A DNA stretch of 33,209 nucleotides, taken from contig JAGWVB010000014.1 of the NCBI GenBank assembly GCA_018971105.1, positions 1-33,209 on the forward strand, written 5' to 3'. Of the stretch, positions 26,889-33,131 are shown piece by piece; position 1 is the first letter of the stretch; the number at the start of each line of letters is the position of its first letter. The translations under genes and the position numbers were made by a program. The notes under the pieces were generated by a model. That model saw only the letters and a list, made by a program, of their open reading frames with translations. It was not told the origin of the DNA and did no database searches. Source of the DNA: Burkholderiales bacterium (lineage in GTDB: Bacteria > Pseudomonadota > Gammaproteobacteria > Burkholderiales > Burkholderiaceae_C).

Positions 26889-27602
26889 TCAGGCCGGCGC
26901 CGCGGCCCGCGCGCGACGGCGGCTGGCGTAGCCGGCACCGCCCAGGCCCAGCAGCACCAGCGCCCACGACGCCGGCTCCGGCACCCCGGGCGGCGCCGAG
27001 CCGCCACCACACAGGCCGGTGTTGCCGATGTCGATGCAGGCGCCGGTGTAAGTCACGTTGCCGATCGTCGACGTGTTGTTGCCCGGCGAGTTGCCGTCCA
27101 GGATCGGCGAGACGCCGGGGTTGCTGGTCCAGCCGATGTGGGTCGCGACGTTGCCGTCGCCGGCGCCGACACCGAACGTCAGCGTGAACAGGTCGTAGCC
27201 ATCGAGGCCGGCCTGCAGGCCGGCCAGGGTGGCGTCGGTCTCCAGGCTCAAGGCATTCACGCTCACGTCGCCGCCGCTGGCGCTGGCCGCGAAGTAGCAA
27301 TCCAGGCTGTAGTCGCAGGGATCGCCCGCCACGGCGCTGAACTTGCCGACGCCGACGAAGCTGGCGCTCTGGAAGGTGAGCAGCGCGGTGTCGAAAGTCA
27401 GGTCCAGCTGGAAGGCCGACAGCACCTGCTGGACACCCGTGGGGTCCAGCACGCCCTGCATGCCGGCGATGGCCACCGTGACGCTCACGGCGCCGCCGGC
27501 GCTGGCTCCCTGGCTGGCGGGGTTGACCGACACCACCGGGGCGGCGCAGGCGAGGAACGGCAGGGCCAGGGCCGTCGCGGCGGCGAGTCGATTCAGCTTC
27601 AT
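26889..27602 (-). CDS. PEP-CTERM protein with cohesin-like domain
   Basis: A 237-residue exported protein. The Sec signal peptide is at 1-20 (MKLNRLAAATALALPFLACA). Residues about 22-165 look like a cohesin-type beta-sandwich: 'VSVNPASQGASAGGAVSVTV' as first strands, 'LSAFQLDLTFDTALLTFQSA' as the hallmark Phe-x-Leu-Asp hydrophobic pair, and 'GYDLFTLTFGVGAG' as a late strand. A Cys/Asn/Gly-rich linker follows. The C-terminal sorting signal begins with VPEP at 207-210, then a hydrophobic span, then an Arg cluster and AAAPA. Exosortase is expected to process it at the envelope. A GGAG ribosome site precedes the ATG. It lies 36 bp downstream of the dockerin gene, so the two are probably one operon. 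No exosortase gene is in this window. Confidence 0.88.
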   Translation of the reverse strand: MKLNRLAAATALALPFLACAAPVVSVNPASQGASAGGAVSVTVAIAGMQGVLDPTGVQQVLSAFQLDLTFDTALLTFQSASFVGVGKFSAVAGDPCDYSLDCYFAASASGGDVSVNALSLETDATLAGLQAGLDGYDLFTLTFGVGAGDGNVATHIGWTSNPGVSPILDGNSPGNNTSTIGNVTYTGACIDIGNTGLCGGGSAPPGVPEPASWALVLLGLGGAGYASRRRARAAAPA

Positions 27603-27638
27603 TTCGAGACTCCTTGTTGATTCAGCTCGCAGCGGCCG

Positions 27639-29216
27639 TCAATGCACGCACAGCGGATGCGTGCAGACCACCGCACATTGGCGTGCGTCGGTGATGCTGA
27701 CGATGCCGCTGCGGGTGGGATTGCGCACATCGGTCGGTCCGACATGGGTGCCGATGGACTTGGTGATCAGGGCGAGGTCGAGCTTGTCGATCTCGCCGTC
27801 GCCGTTGACATCGCAGACCTGGGTCACGACGCCGGTGGCGCGCTGCAGCACGAGCAGCGAATAGGCGTTGTGCGAGGTGTTGAAGGCATCACCCCAGCTG
27901 CCGGGGTAGGTGCCGCAGGTGAACGAGCCGTTCGCGCATTGCATCGTCAGGATCTGGTGCGCGTAATCAAAATACTGCCCGGCCGTCTCGGCCGCGTAAT
28001 ACCCGACACCGCCATTGCCGAACAGCGGCACCTGCGGATAGGCGGCCGGATTCTTGTTGACTTCGCGGTACTGGCAGGCCGGGGCGCTGGCCGCCGGCAG
28101 GGTGCCGAAATCGTTCGGACCGATGTTGCCGGCGTTCACCGGGACGGCCGCCTGGCGGATCAGCTCCATCGCCTTGAACGAGCTCCAGAGGTAGTAGCCG
28201 TAGGTGTTGTTGCCCCAGGGGCTGAACGCGCTCAGGTTGTCCCAGCGGTAATGGTCCTTGACCCATTCCATGTAGCTCTGGACCATCGGCGTGTTGACGG
28301 TCGCGCCGCCGAACAGCTGGACGTAGATGCCCGATGCGGTCTGCGGCAGCGACGGATAGTAGAAGCTGTCGACCTCGTGGTAGCCATGGCCGTGCTCGGT
28401 CGCGCTCAGCGTGCCTTGCGGATAGTTCGCCGACGGGTTCGATCCCGGGATCAGCGTCCCGCCCAGCACGTTGCAACCGCTCGGACTGTCGGAGCCCTGG
28501 GTCGCGTTGGTGGCGTAGGCATTGCGCGCGTTCTGCAGCGCCGTGTTGACCTTGGCGAGCTGCGCCGGGTCGGCGAACGGGACACCGCCGTCACCGCTCT
28601 TGTTCGACTGGTAGAAGATCGACGCCGCGTACAGGCCCGCCGATGCGAATTGCGTCGTCGACGAGTCGTCGCAGTTGCCGGCGGTGTAGCACCAGTAGCC
28701 GTTGACGTTCTGGTTCGCGACGATGCGGTTCACCATGCCGTCGATCGCGGCCTTGATCGTCGTCGTCGCCGCGCCGCCCAGGCCGCTCTGGTCCGGGCCG
28801 CCCGACAGCGCATAGCTCGACAGCGCGAACAGCCAGGAACCGTCCGTGTAGGCATAGAAGCCCCGTCCGCCGCCCGTGACGCCGTTGTTGATGATGTAGG
28901 TCGCGGCCGTCCGCAGGTAGCCCTGCTCGGCCGCGGTGGCGCCGGCATAGCCCTGCGGCGGATCCGACGGGTTGCCGCTGGCGCGCTTCTCAAGCAGCGC
29001 TTCCATCGCCAGTCCCGAGGCGCCCTCCCAGCCCAGCGAGGAGGGATTGCTGTAGGCGCCCGTGGATTCCATATAGGCCAGGCCATTGTTGATCGCCGTG
29101 GCCACGTCGATCTGGAACGGCGTCAAGGCCCATGCGATGCCCGCTGTCGCGCTCAATGCCGACCCGATCAGGGCACCTATGAGAATTCGCCGCTGGGCGC
29201 GAAACACATTCAACAT
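27639..29216 (-). CDS. Secreted alpha/alpha-toroid (prenyltransferase/squalene-cyclase-like) protein with C-terminal dockerin
   Basis: A 525-residue exported protein with a signal peptide (basic MLNVFRAQRR, hydrophobic 11-30, cleavage likely after AWA at 30). Residues about 35-455 consist of aromatic, Gly-rich helical repeats ('INNGLAYMES', 'QGYLRTAATYIINNG', 'GSWLFALSSYAL', 'DYAHQILTMQCANGSF', 'NAYSLLVLQRATG') of the toroid type found in prenyltransferase/squalene-cyclase repeats. The acidic DXDD catalytic motif of true cyclases is not apparent, so enzyme activity is unproven. Residues 468-525 form a type I dockerin-like module. Its first calcium loop DVNGDGEIDKLD is canonical; the second, NPTRSGIVSITD, is degenerate. 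The tail has three Cys. The ATG at 29216 follows a strong GGAGGAA. It is first gene of the pair with the cohesin-like PEP-CTERM gene. Confidence 0.82.
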   Translation of the reverse strand: MLNVFRAQRRILIGALIGSALSATAGIAWALTPFQIDVATAINNGLAYMESTGAYSNPSSLGWEGASGLAMEALLEKRASGNPSDPPQGYAGATAAEQGYLRTAATYIINNGVTGGGRGFYAYTDGSWLFALSSYALSGGPDQSGLGGAATTTIKAAIDGMVNRIVANQNVNGYWCYTAGNCDDSSTTQFASAGLYAASIFYQSNKSGDGGVPFADPAQLAKVNTALQNARNAYATNATQGSDSPSGCNVLGGTLIPGSNPSANYPQGTLSATEHGHGYHEVDSFYYPSLPQTASGIYVQLFGGATVNTPMVQSYMEWVKDHYRWDNLSAFSPWGNNTYGYYLWSSFKAMELIRQAAVPVNAGNIGPNDFGTLPAASAPACQYREVNKNPAAYPQVPLFGNGGVGYYAAETAGQYFDYAHQILTMQCANGSFTCGTYPGSWGDAFNTSHNAYSLLVLQRATGVVTQVCDVNGDGEIDKLDLALITKSIGTHVGPTDVRNPTRSGIVSITDARQCAVVCTHPLCVH

Positions 29217-29662: not shown

Positions 29663-29932
29663 TCAGCTCGCCGTCCAGCCCTGGATGGCGGAGACGGGCA
29701 CGATGACGGTCTCGGTATAGGGCTCGAAAGGGGCCTGGATGCTCCGCACGGTGGCGCTGTCCGGCGCCTCGAGCAGCGTGTAGTTGTGCGATCCGTCGAC
29801 CGCCGCCCATTCGCCGCGGATCGTCACCTCAGTCGGAATCGATCCATAGAACGACTGCGCCAGCGCCGCCAGTTCGCTGAATTGCGCAGGGGTCAGTCCG
29901 GGCCGCATCCGATTCGTGAGCAGGAACAGCAT
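29663..29932 (-). CDS. Small DUF3303-like protein, function unknown
   Basis: An 89-residue cytoplasmic protein with an alternating strand/helix pattern: MLFLLTNRMRPGLTPAQF, a helix 'AALAQSFYGSIP', strands 'VTIRGEWAAVDGSHNYTLLEAP', a helix 'SATVRSIQAPFE' and a final strand 'TETVIVPVSAIQGW'. This is the ferredoxin-like dimeric alpha/beta-barrel pattern of DUF3303/NIPSNAP-like proteins, and the call is at that level only. The ATG at 29932 has a good GGGAGGA ribosome site. It stands alone, divergent from the radical SAM operon by 174 bp and upstream of the non-coding regulatory region. No functional link to either side is evident. Confidence 0.6.
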   Translation of the reverse strand: MLFLLTNRMRPGLTPAQFSELAALAQSFYGSIPTEVTIRGEWAAVDGSHNYTLLEAPDSATVRSIQAPFEPYTETVIVPVSAIQGWTAS

Positions 29933-30106
29933 GCCATCCTCCCAAGCAAAGTCCGAGCATAAGCGCCGGGCCGGCGTGGCGCGCGGCCGGCAAATGAGCG
30001 GGCGCCGAAAGCAGCCACCGCCCGAATGCAGGATGTAATGCCGGGCGAAACGCATGGCATCATCGAAACCGAATCCGCCGCTCATGTTGCGAAAGGGAAA
30101 GCCGAG

Positions 30107-31342
30107 ATGAACACGCTGACCGGCTCGCCGGCGCTCAAGCTGCAGGTGATGTGCGAGGGCATCCGCTACACCCCGGCGCTGGGCGCGGCCGCCGCGCATT
30201 CGATGCCCAACTACTACCCCTACCGCTTCAAGCCGGGCGAGCCCGACCCGGGCGGCCGCGGCATCGCCACCATCCCCTACCTGATCAACACCGCCGACGG
30301 CACCGAGATCCGCATCCTCGGCGACGGCGACTCGCCCTGGCATGTCGAGGGCGACGCCGAGCACGGCTACACCCTGATCGACGACCGCAACGGCCAGCGC
30401 GAGGCGATCGGGTTCGAGCCGCTGCGCCCCTGGCTGACGCAGAAGACCGACGATGGCCTGCCCTACGCGCAGGCCGGGGTGACGACGCATGGCGACATGC
30501 TCGTCATCAACGTGGCGCCGGGCTGCGAGTATTTCCTGCACAAGCACGACGGCGTCTCGATGCGCTGCACCTTCTGCGCCTACGGCGCGCCCGACGAGCG
30601 CACGCTGCACCTGGGGCAGAAGACGGGCCAGGTCGGGATCCCGCAGGCGACGCTGGACCGCATGGCGCAGGCCTGCGAGGCCGTGTGCGCGCAGACCGAG
30701 ATCCGCCACATCTATCTCGTCGGCGGCTCGCTCACCGACGCGCGCAAGGAGGGCGAGCGCTTCCTGCAGCTGGCGCGCTATGTGCAGCGGATCAACCACC
30801 GCCGCATCCCGGTCGCGCTGGGCTCGGGGGCGATCCCCGACGACCTGCTCGAGCGCTTCCACGCCGAGCAGCTCGTGCAGCATGTCTGCTTCAACCTCGA
30901 GCAAGGCGACGCCGAGCTGTTCGCGAAGATCTGCCCGGGCAAGAACCGCTATGTCGGCTACGCGCGCTGGATCGAGTCGCTCGAGACGGCGGTGCGGCTC
31001 TGGGGCCGCGGCCATGTCTACACGGCGATGGTCGCCGGCATCGAGCTCGAACCCGAGCATGGCCTCGAATGGGAGGACGCCGCGCGGCGCGCGCTGGCCG
31101 GCGCCGAGGACCTGTGCCGGCGCGGCATCGTCCCGGTCTACTCGCTCGTCTGGCCGGTGGGCGGGCGCCAGCGCCCCGACTTCCACGCCCGCATCCGGAA
31201 CTACTTCGAGACCCTGGTCTTCGGCTGCCGCGACATCCGCCGGCGCCACGCGCTGACGATCTCCGAGGGATTCATGTGCCACCGCTGCGCCTACATGCAG
31301 CTCGAATGCGACCTCGAACGGGTCGGGGAGCTGGTCGCATGA
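30107..31342 (+). CDS. Radical SAM protein with atypical CX13CX2C cluster motif
   Basis: A 411-residue protein. Residues about 130-330 resemble a radical SAM barrel. The motif region reads VAPGC140, then 13 residues including HKHDG, then C154-TF-C157-AYG. The C-TF-C-AYG end is typical of the [4Fe-4S]-SAM loop, but the first Cys is 13 residues away rather than 3. A later 'YLVGGSLTDARKEGERFLQL' fits the SAM-binding GGE-like strand, and 'ALGSGAIPDDLLERF' a barrel strand-helix. The C-terminus has Cys391, Cys394 and Cys401 (CHRCAYMQLEC), possible ligands of a second cluster. The ATG at 30107 was chosen; a start 27 codons upstream is possible. Substrate unknown. Its stop overlaps the next gene's start (ATGA), so the two products likely act together. 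Confidence 0.85.
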   Translation: MNTLTGSPALKLQVMCEGIRYTPALGAAAAHSMPNYYPYRFKPGEPDPGGRGIATIPYLINTADGTEIRILGDGDSPWHVEGDAEHGYTLIDDRNGQREAIGFEPLRPWLTQKTDDGLPYAQAGVTTHGDMLVINVAPGCEYFLHKHDGVSMRCTFCAYGAPDERTLHLGQKTGQVGIPQATLDRMAQACEAVCAQTEIRHIYLVGGSLTDARKEGERFLQLARYVQRINHRRIPVALGSGAIPDDLLERFHAEQLVQHVCFNLEQGDAELFAKICPGKNRYVGYARWIESLETAVRLWGRGHVYTAMVAGIELEPEHGLEWEDAARRALAGAEDLCRRGIVPVYSLVWPVGGRQRPDFHARIRNYFETLVFGCRDIRRRHALTISEGFMCHRCAYMQLECDLERVGELVA

Positions 31343-32340
31343 CGGCGCCCGATGCGGCGTCCATCGTGCGCCTGAGCACCGCCTACTGGGAAAGCCAGAC
31401 CCTGCTCACCGCGAACCGGCTGCGCCTCTTCGACACCCTGGCCGACGGCGCGCTCGGCGCCGCCGAGGTCGCCGCGGCGCAGGGGCTGGACGCGCGCAGC
31501 ACCGAACTGCTGCTGCGCGGCTGCGCCGCGCTGGGCTTCATCGAAGCCGGCGCCGACGGCCGCTACGCGAACACGCCGACGGCGGCAACCTTCCTCGTCT
31601 CGCGCAGCCCGGCCTACATGGGCCACGCGATCGGCTACAGCGACCAGCTCTACGCCACCTGGGGCCGGCTCGAGGACGCGCTGCGCAGCGGCCGGCCCGC
31701 CCTGCCCGCCCAGGCCTACCTCGGCGACGATGCCGTGCGCACGCGCACCTTCGTGATGGCGATGCACGAGCGCGCGCTGGGCGTGGCGCGGGCGCTCGTC
31801 GGCTGCATCGACCTCGCGGGGCGGCGCTCGATGCTCGACGTCGGCGGCGGTCCGGGAACCTATTCGGTGCTGCTGACGGCGCGCTTCCCCGGCCTGCGCT
31901 CCGAGGTGCTCGAGCTCCCCGGCGTGGCCGCGGTGGCGCGCGAGCTCGTGGCGCAGGCCGGCGCGAGCGAGCGCGTCGCGCTGCGCGACGGCGACTACCA
32001 CGGCGCCGACTTCGGCAGCGGCAAGGACGTGGTGCTGATGTCGGGCATGTTCCATCGCGAGACGCCGGCCGCCTGCCGCTCGCTCATCGCCCGCGCCGCG
32101 GCCTGCCTGGACCGCGGCGGCCTGCTCGTCGTCGCCGACGTCTTCACCGATGCGGGCGGCACGAGCCCGGCCTTTGCGGCGATGTTCGGCCTCAACATGA
32201 TGCTCACCGCGCCCGACGGCGGCGTCCATGCCGATGCCGATGTCCAGCGCTGGATGGCCGAGGCCGGGTTCGTCGAGCTGCGCACGACGGCGCTGCCGCC
32301 GCCGATGCCGCACCGCGTCGTGACCGGGATCAAGCGATGA
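31339..32340 (+). CDS. SAM-dependent O-methyltransferase-like protein (dimerisation HTH + Rossmann domain)
   Basis: A 333-residue small-molecule methyltransferase of the hydroxyindole/hydroxyneurosporene O-methyltransferase class. Residues about 10-85 form the winged-helix-like dimerisation domain ('RLRLFDTLADGALGAAEVAAAQGLDARSTELLLRG' type, ending at YANTPTAATFL). The Rossmann SAM site is SMLDVGGGPGTYS (164-176), with the acidic strand end SEVLELPG after it. 'VLMSGMFHRE' holds the His that often serves as catalytic base, then a GGLLVVADVF strand. The start overlaps the radical SAM stop and the stop overlaps the next start, both by 4 bp. With the radical SAM protein it suggests a modification pathway whose acceptor I cannot name. 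Confidence 0.85.
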   Translation: MTAPDAASIVRLSTAYWESQTLLTANRLRLFDTLADGALGAAEVAAAQGLDARSTELLLRGCAALGFIEAGADGRYANTPTAATFLVSRSPAYMGHAIGYSDQLYATWGRLEDALRSGRPALPAQAYLGDDAVRTRTFVMAMHERALGVARALVGCIDLAGRRSMLDVGGGPGTYSVLLTARFPGLRSEVLELPGVAAVARELVAQAGASERVALRDGDYHGADFGSGKDVVLMSGMFHRETPAACRSLIARAAACLDRGGLLVVADVFTDAGGTSPAFAAMFGLNMMLTAPDGGVHADADVQRWMAEAGFVELRTTALPPPMPHRVVTGIKR

Positions 32341-33131
32341 GCCGCGGTCGAGGCCGGGCCGCCGCCGCGGCGCTCGGCTGCCTGTGCGCGCTCGCGGCAC
32401 CGGCGCAGGTGCCGCCGCCTGTACCGACGCCGTTGCCGGTGCCGACGCCATTGCCGGCGCCGTCGCCGGCCCAGGGCGCGGCGGCGGCGCCGGCCCTGGG
32501 CCGGGATCCTGGCGCGCCGCCGATCGGCCCGCTGAAGTCGCTCGGCCACCACCGCTACGGCATCGACCGCATCGTCGTCGACCGGGCCGCGCGCACGATC
32601 ACCGTGCCGGGCCGCGTCCATGTGCTGGGCCGGCCGATCGAATACCTGGCGACGAGCCACGACGGCATGAAGCAGTACGAATCGCTGCTCGAGCTCGACG
32701 CCAGCGGCAGCGAGCTCAACCTCGCCTGCATCCTGCTCGGTCTCGAGCGCGACCCGGCGCAGCCGGCCCTGCATCAGTTCGACCGCCGCACGGTGACGGG
32801 GCCGCATCTGGCGATCTCGATCGCCTGGACCGAGAACGGACACCGGCGCGAAGTGCCGGCGGCGCAGGCCTTGCTGAACCCGGATGCGGGCGTCAACCCC
32901 GACAGCGTCGAGTGGGTCTACACCGGCTCGTTCTTTTCCGACGCCGGCGGCGCCTATGCCGCCGACCTCTCGGGCACCTTGATCGGCGTCGTGCACGACG
33001 GCAACACGGTGATCGAATCGGCCCAGGGCGTGGGCATCGGCGCCTACGGCTCGGTGCGGGGCAACGCGATGCTGCCCCCGGTGGGGTCGCCCGTCGAGTT
33101 GATCATCCACACGGCGCGCGGCGGGCCGTGA
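32337..33131 (+). CDS. Secreted YdjY-domain protein with Pro-rich linker
   Basis: A 264-residue exported protein. The start MSRGRGR is followed by a hydrophobic segment (8-23) and a likely signal peptidase site after APA. Residues about 25-45 are a Pro/Val/Thr/Leu linker made of repeats, encoded by an 18-bp DNA repeat (32421-32456). Residues about 75-250 resemble the YdjY domain: 'DRAARTITVPGRVHVLGRPI', 'EYLATSHDGMKQYESLLELD', 'LNLACILLGLE' and the late 'EWVYTGSFF'. This domain's function is unknown to me; in E. coli, ydjY also sits in a redox-like gene group. Its ATG overlaps the methyltransferase stop and its TGA overlaps the next gene's GTG. A periplasmic location is expected. Confidence 0.78.
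   Translation: MSRGRGRAAAAALGCLCALAAPAQVPPPVPTPLPVPTPLPAPSPAQGAAAAPALGRDPGAPPIGPLKSLGHHRYGIDRIVVDRAARTITVPGRVHVLGRPIEYLATSHDGMKQYESLLELDASGSELNLACILLGLERDPAQPALHQFDRRTVTGPHLAISIAWTENGHRREVPAAQALLNPDAGVNPDSVEWVYTGSFFSDAGGAYAADLSGTLIGVVHDGNTVIESAQGVGIGAYGSVRGNAMLPPVGSPVELIIHTARGGP
32421..32456 (+). repeat. Tandem 18-bp repeat inside the YdjY-domain gene
   Basis: Two adjacent 18-bp units (GTACCGACGCCGTTGCCG and GTGCCGACGCCATTGCCG) differ at two positions and encode a repeated VPTPLP linker. Both differences are synonymous, which suggests selection for the linker or an old duplication. Confidence 0.75.

Follow-up and report, generated by a model that had tools for sequence, protein, structure and literature searches.

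A candidate exosortase-anchored cohesin–dockerin display pair encoded by neighbouring genes in a Burkholderiales genome

Peer et al. are said, in papers that cite their 2009 work, to have reported cohesin and dockerin modules outside cellulosomes. The roles of most PEP-CTERM proteins are little known. We analysed a stretch of 33,209 nucleotides from a Burkholderiales bacterium (contig JAGWVB010000014.1, positions 1 to 33,209; the window), in which two adjacent genes encode a protein ending in a dockerin, referred to here as the cargo, and a cohesin-like protein with a PEP-CTERM sorting tail. We propose, with a probability of about 0.72, that these genes encode a non-cellulosomal display pair in which a single, exosortase-anchored cohesin would hold the cargo by its dockerin. 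An exosortase substrate serving as the anchor for another exported protein would link the questions of non-cellulosomal cohesins and dockerins and of PEP-CTERM proteins, and would make both testable.

Cellulosomal pairs from Clostridium, Acetivibrio and Ruminococcus have both domain families in common with the window pair by profile, as well as duplicated calcium loops, the second of which is degenerate in the window. Unlike them, window-type systems have one cohesin per anchor, an exosortase-type tail, a four-cysteine dockerin and neighbouring genes, and neither a carbohydrate-binding module (CBM) nor, in the cargo scanned, a glycosidase catalytic domain was found. A cellulosome identity was considered and rejected, as we found one cohesin per partner rather than a multi-cohesin scaffoldin, no CBM and no glycosidase cargo. 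For freshwater Planctomycetes, the available text of PMC6461901 describes a hypothetical ‘planctosome’, in which non-cellulosomal cohesin and dockerin proteins retain exported enzymes. The likeness lies in the Gram-negative-type bacteria, in the non-cellulosomal mode of retention and in the hypothetical standing of both systems; that account combines a lamin-tail-domain anchor and an adaptor with peptidase cargo, whereas here a small single-cohesin PEP-CTERM protein lies beside each cargo gene of a pair. In anaerobic methanotrophic (ANME) archaea, non-cellulosomal cohesins and dockerins occur alongside archaeosortase or exosortase genes (PMC5244752). Gene pairing is not described in the available part of that paper, which calls the function of these modules outside cellulosomes not known; our pairs, in contrast, are bacterial and encoded by neighbours. 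PEP-CTERM/exosortase sorting as set out by Haft 2006 (PMC1569441) involves the same tail and enzyme class as the window system; cohesin and dockerin have 0 occurrences in the main text of that paper, whereas here the sorted protein is the proposed receptor for an exported partner. Our literature search, which did not extend to database annotation, found no paper joining PEP-CTERM with cohesin or dockerin, and exosortase and dockerin were mentioned together for archaea only.

The gene pair and its domains

Both genes lie on the minus strand, 36 bp apart, exactly where an initial annotation made from the sequence alone had placed them. They share a reading frame with a single TGA between them; each of the two frames is intact, as are the two sorting features.

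27639..29216, minus strand: cargo gene (gene 1), 525 residues, stop TGA; signal peptide, alpha-helical toroid-like body and C-terminal dockerin
29124..29216, minus strand: residues 1–31 of the cargo, read by eye as its signal peptide region
27831..29120, minus strand: toroid-like body of the cargo, also in five other loci at 39–90% identity
27645..27827, minus strand: dockerin domain with four-cysteine pattern, from Pfam and family comparison
27777..27812, minus strand: calcium loop 1, DVNGDGEIDKLD, canonical
27687..27722, minus strand: calcium loop 2, NPTRSGIVSITD, degenerate in the window, canonical in most relatives
27813..27815, minus strand: Cys468, putative disulfide partner of Cys514
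27675..27677, minus strand: Cys514, putative disulfide partner of Cys468
27663..27665, minus strand: Cys518, possible pair with Cys523
27648..27650, minus strand: Cys523, possible pair with Cys518
27603..27638, minus strand: 36-bp gap between the cargo gene and the cohesin-PEP-CTERM gene
27610–27615, minus strand: AAGGAG, resembling a ribosome-binding site for the cohesin-PEP-CTERM gene, by eye
26889..27602, minus strand: cohesin-PEP-CTERM gene (gene 2), 237 residues, beta-rich body
27540..27602, minus strand: residues 1–21 of the cohesin protein, read by eye as its signal peptide region
27030..27536, minus strand: cohesin-like domain, from family profiles (window in both); Pfam alone 0.07
26913..26984, minus strand: PEPxxWA-CTERM sorting tail with motif, membrane helix and Arg cluster, from profile matches

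The C-terminus of the cargo had been read as a dockerin with one canonical and one degenerate calcium loop, and this stands: Pfam Dockerin_1 (PF00404) matches at 8.8e-5 with 23.1 bits, a narrow pass by 0.2 bits over the cut-off of 22.9. The same model exceeds its cut-off in six of the 22 cargo proteins scanned, namely the window’s and those of L036, L037, L046, L048 and L067 (L, G and C are our handles for loci, genomes and contigs); cargo dockerins unlisted by Pfam were joined to the family by our own profiles. Among 41 dockerins compared, window included, the calcium-loop pattern is matched twice in 34. Loop 2 is off-pattern in five (window, L003, L004, L031 and L052), the deviation being strongest in the window and in L003, a relative with 90% identity. 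Four cysteines stand at fixed places in 32/41. The equivalents of Cys468 and Cys514 occur together in 34 and are missing together in the other seven, a pattern pointing to a disulfide that would brace the calcium loops. The dockerin ends at most 10 residues from the C-terminus in 30 of the 41 and lies near the N-terminus in seven, the latter including giant proteins of RHS or Ig-like type (L038, L040 and L041). Our use of ‘dockerin’ for this probable domain rests on the sequence pattern together with the constant cohesin neighbour.

The downstream product had been described as cohesin-like with an exosortase-type tail, and here too the description holds, for the cohesin by way of its relatives. 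Within the first partner family (n = 10: four toroid partners and six others), Pfam Cohesin matches at E ≤ 1 in eight, the best at 1.3e-6. For 10 further partners, none of them in the first profile, it matches at E < 0.1 in eight and exceeds the cut-off in four (L040, L042, L043 and L045). Profile A11, built from 22 partners including the window’s, places scaffoldin cohesins at the top of the PDB (3l8q_A, 4.2e-8), and of the 25 matches at E ≤ 1 one is an Ig-like protein and the others are cohesin modules, counting the NagJ entries, which we take to be such modules. The PDB cohesins matched by the partner profiles included 3l8q, 1zv9, 2y3n_A and 5lxv_A. A model of the window protein, with a predicted local distance difference test (pLDDT) score mostly <50 over the cohesin domain, gave cohesins as all of its first eight Foldseek matches (best E 0.015), a result that calls for caution at the model’s mean pLDDT of 46. 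The window protein is a weak match alone (0.07) and its family is clearly cohesin by profile, so its predicted membership can be taken as secure through family evidence. A Pfam Cohesin search of the window’s genome gave no match, although family profiles containing the window gene find it, a false negative that we attribute to divergence.

The sorting tail matches PEPxxWA-CTERM at 1.3e-9 (NF035944, 37.7 bits against 35) and the Pfam model at 6.9e-8, and the window’s genome has one exosortase gene (PF09721, 3.0e-70). The features of a PEP-CTERM substrate are all present: a C-terminal PEP motif, a membrane helix, a basic cluster, a signal peptide judged by eye and a genomic exosortase. Partner proteins are short, with space for a single cohesin, and Pfam found no CBM in the 20 scanned.

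Adjacency, cargo and partner types

Dockerin and cohesin genes are adjacent far more often than chance would predict. Searching 369 genomes of the class, probably Gammaproteobacteria in the GTDB scheme, with a dockerin profile yielded 27 places, spread over 21 genomes; the 25 new ones were all inspected, and their neighbours were scored with cohesin profile A5, which includes none of the 25. A same-strand cohesin gene was immediately adjacent in 12/25, and in 10 of the 12 strongest (E ≤ 2e-9), compared with 7 of 113 non-dockerin genes in L038–L048 as the local background (P = 5e-11 for 10/12). Two of these 10, both in G638, have one common cohesin gene, located between the two dockerin genes. 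At the 11th strong place (G479) one gene intervenes before the cohesin gene, and at the 12th (G743) the neighbour was missed by A5 and matches Pfam Cohesin at 0.032. Weaker places had a cohesin neighbour in 2/13 (G682, and G610 at 0.0018), and at one of them (G474 C18) a cohesin-like match lies inside the same protein as the dockerin.

The reverse test gave a similar picture. With profile A11, which covers the cohesin domain but not the tail, 24 genomes from a single family yielded 15 places, 12 of them new, with a same-strand adjacent dockerin gene at 10 of the 12; these are not 12 independent events, since A11 holds three cohesins of the searched family and several loci are probably orthologous. 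At the 11th place (L071) a dockerin adjoins the cohesin but is frame-shifted relative to the rest of the cargo, and at the 12th, a weak match (L080), the profile found no adjacent dockerin. Two separate pairs occur in one genome (G780), their cargoes being 691 and 510 residues long. The expectation that the genes would be conserved as neighbours is thus borne out at 10/12 places in each direction, taking the strongest in the forward one.

Across whole genomes, 22 dockerin-bearing genomes held 23 cohesin places, of which 20 lie no more than two genes away from a dockerin, and 43 dockerin-negative genomes held none; the contrast is descriptive, since the positive set was hand-chosen (nine genomes from the order search and 13 from the class search, all 13 with a cohesin neighbour) and six genomes with weak dockerins (G407, G408, G474, G486, G489 and G535) were left out, while A5 and A11 include many of these genomes’ own cohesins. 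The three exceptions were two contig ends of G032 and a weak match in G028. Exosortase was found in 20/22 of the dockerin-bearing and 13/43 of the dockerin-negative genomes (p = 3.5e-6). Searches of 399 genomes of the order with the toroid protein and with the dockerin by itself detected this dockerin in nine; cohesin was found in eight, comprising seven of the nine dockerin-positive genomes, which are themselves members of the profile, and 1/390 others (G254).

Two of these genomes yielded further observations. The gene that intervenes in G479 (L043:7256-7945) encodes an apparently exported protein with a sorting-like tail, judged by eye. In G032, contig ends share sequence, involving the cohesin-bearing C31 and C35 and the start of a frame on C98 (L032, L055 and L056); this frame encodes 1745 residues, RHS-like and dockerin-bearing. 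The shared ends indicate that cohesin and dockerin may here sit within one repeated giant protein.

The cargo attached to these dockerins is varied. Among 10 dockerin places of the order search inspected beyond the window, seven adjoin a gene whose product carries a tail of PEP-CTERM or similar type (L028–L031, L034, L036 and L037) and three show no such neighbour (L033, L035 and L032, the last a 5-kb contig with a single open frame). Six of the seven tailed neighbours form one family with the four toroid partners. Cargoes from this search were Ig-like, propeller-like (weak matches), IgGFc-binding, PKD/cadherin, GDSL lipase and metallophosphatase proteins. Others were a subtilase (L044), Endonuclease I with a lamin-tail domain plus an Exo_endo_phos domain (L047), GSDH (L052), NHL (L048), RHS with PASTA (L040) and a teneurin-like YD shell (L041), while for those of L039, L043 and L045 no family match reached E ≤ 0.001. 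The 22 cargo proteins scanned showed no glycosidase catalytic domain, the nearest being a weak GH2 sugar-binding match in L048. By profile, then, the dockerin–cohesin pair is constant while the cargo varies, and it is not tied to the toroid protein, which the initial annotation had taken as the special cargo of the system.

That annotation had also given the toroid body a terpene-cyclase fold, which is unproven. At E ≤ 1 neither Pfam nor NCBIfam gave a family for the body, and Foldseek with its model (pLDDT 57, predicted template modelling score (pTM) 0.63) returned a mixture of alpha/alpha toroids, with polysaccharide lyase PL10, GH88/GH105 and terpene cyclases matched about equally, none at E ≤ 0.001. 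Relatives occur in five loci, with three copies in L006, giving eight toroid genes with the window’s; the closest, in L003, comes from a Burkholderiales metagenome-assembled genome (90% identity), and at E ≤ 1e-10 the body was found in 1/399 order genomes, the window’s own. A cohesin-like PEP-CTERM gene adjoins the toroid gene in the window, L003, L004 and L005, and a type-2 PEP-CTERM gene does so in L007 and twice in L006.

The type-2 family (L006:1673-2407, L006:4549-5274, L007:7766-8473 and L028:7892-8629), with the motif SLTDLLxGxSIxxGDKxFD, replaces the cohesin beside dockerins of one subtype, which carry ‘DVKxCIPxCTR’ (L006 twice, L007 and L028). The cargo of L028 is unrelated to the toroid yet has a type-2 partner and the same dockerin subtype. 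Conversely, the body of L006_0 is 70–71% identical to those of L004 and L005, whereas its dockerin shares 43% identity with theirs and 65% with that of L028. On these comparisons the dockerin subtype tracks the type of partner, not the cargo; the effect may have been strengthened by gene conversion among the tandem copies of L006. The branch uniting the four type-2-paired dockerins has low support (0.143), which rises to 0.913 with L006_6 included. Type-2 profile A10, run over 200 order genomes, matched only G028, itself a profile member.

The docking proposal and its rivals

In the arrangement that we propose, cargo and PEP-CTERM protein would both leave the cytoplasm via their signal peptides. 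Exosortase would process the PEP-CTERM protein, which would be retained at or beyond the outer membrane, on the surface or in the matrix, and would there display its one cohesin domain. The cargo, having no sorting tail, would be retained by its dockerin binding this cohesin, probably in a calcium-dependent manner, with the putative Cys468–Cys514 disulfide bracing the two calcium loops of the dockerin. The system would be modular, dockerin and cohesin remaining neighbours while the cargo is exchanged, and the window pair would be one case of it. The many kinds of cargo (protease, nuclease, lipase, RHS/teneurin, IgGFc-binding and propeller proteins) suggest a general device for retaining exported proteins at the cell surface rather than a cellulose machine.

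Several results weigh against docking. The window cohesin falls below the Pfam Cohesin cut-off (PF00963, 0.07, 13.8 bits against 24.1), and Dockerin_1 is below its cut-off in four and unlisted in 12 of the 22 scanned cargo proteins. When dockerin profile A3 was compared with the PDB, the top two matches were other EF-hand calcium-binding proteins (2.7e-6 and 3e-6), with the dockerins 4fl4_A, 1ohz_B and 2ccl_B behind them at 1.9e-5 to 3.9e-5 and many calmodulins ranked below these. The Pfam and EF-hand results slightly lower our confidence in docking, from 0.75 to the figure given above. A co-fold of dockerin and cohesin as one chain (TGA read as Trp, 10-row alignment) gave a mean pLDDT of 46 and a pTM of 0.34; the dockerin is readable, with a helix after each loop (pLDDT mostly 70–84; loop 2 of the window degenerate), while the cohesin is not, and the model is of too low confidence to display an interface. 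There are also unpaired genes: 11/25 forward places, all weaker matches, have no cohesin partner gene; the third toroid copy of L006 has an orphan dockerin and no PEP-CTERM neighbour; the dockerins of G032 C98 and C68 are orphans within their contigs, as is that of G113 (L033, G113:C8), which stands at the N-terminus of a giant protein that looks PKD-like by eye and whose genome gave no cohesin match; and the cohesin-PEP-CTERM gene of G254 (L057, G254:C34) has no dockerin within its 16 kb. Exosortase was not found in G594 and G682 among the 22 dockerin-bearing genomes, and the PEP-CTERM tail of the 10 further partners is over the Pfam cut-off in four, below it in four and unlisted in two (L043 and L046). 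The gene calls come from a simple open-reading-frame picker.

The proteins might alternatively be functional partners without any cohesin–dockerin binding, co-expressed for one task at the surface or in the matrix, the dockerin being only a calcium-stabilised EF-hand and the beta-sandwich binding carbohydrate. The genes are close same-strand neighbours in most pairs, as this would predict, cohesin folds resemble carbohydrate-binding modules, the dockerin profile is at least as EF-hand-like as dockerin-like and one dockerin subtype adjoins a PEP-CTERM family that is not cohesin. Such a partnership nevertheless looks unlikely: cargo is unrelated between pairs, so that a shared task does not explain the adjacency, dockerin and cohesin are the constant part, and cohesin-PEP-CTERM genes were found in 0/43 dockerin-negative genomes.

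A mirror-tree comparison of dockerins with cohesins gave r = 0.41 (24 pairs, p = 2e-4), or r = 0.33 without the toroid pairs (20 pairs, p = 0.009), by a statistic that ignores species relatedness and with one cohesin counted twice. Such a correlation is expected from shared descent too, and could mean that one ancestral pair was inherited vertically, its adjacency a relic with no present function. The strong degeneracy of loop 2 in the window and L003 would agree with this, as would the reverse test, which was confined to one family, with three cohesins in the profile and several probably orthologous loci. Yet the cargo differs widely between pairs, which argues that genes were re-sorted while the pair remained together; the window’s frames and sorting features are intact, and the dockerin subtype switches with partner type inside the toroid family, all of which makes a mere relic very improbable. 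Even less credible is a cellulosome-like scaffold, on whose single cohesin several dockerin proteins of the genome would converge. The G638 cohesin gene flanked by two dockerin genes is the arrangement such a scaffold would produce, but the window’s genome has one such dockerin at E ≤ 1e-4 and one cohesin, its second Dockerin_1 match (C72) lying below the cut-off, and the short single-cohesin partners, the 20 without a CBM by Pfam and the 22 cargoes with nothing nearer to a glycosidase than the weak L048 match all speak against it.

Docking of the cargo on the PEP-CTERM cohesin, which the initial annotation had also proposed, thus remains our preferred explanation for the window pair. As to its wider reach, we see about even odds that this is a general display system in exosortase-using bacteria of the class, with mutually specific pairs in which the receptor can be swapped together with a matching dockerin subtype, and with a phage dockerin that perhaps uses or blocks the host cohesin. 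Natural pairs of this kind from Gram-negative bacteria, compact and encoded side by side, would in addition offer fresh starting material for tools in surface display and orthogonal binding.

A phage dockerin and the genes flanking the toroid locus

The phage protein is a 98-residue stand-alone dockerin of this family, apparently exported by eye, on the viral contig IMGVR_UViG_3300021440_000018 (L059:4890-5183), where it lies a short way behind the genes for terminase (2.2e-94) and portal protein (2.6e-70). Cohesin anchors of the host would be possible targets for it. The phage dockerin has no relative among phage records at E ≤ 0.001; taken together, plasmid and phage-record searches with one cohesin and with this dockerin gave nothing at that threshold.

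In the window itself, the toroid locus is flanked at 29666-33128 by genes for a radical SAM protein, an O-methyltransferase (PF00891, 4.3e-22), an apparently exported protein and a DUF3303 protein. The radical SAM and DUF3303 proteins have matches in L003–L006, and the methyltransferase and exported protein in L003–L005 and L007, with gene order and orientation changed relative to the window in both cases.

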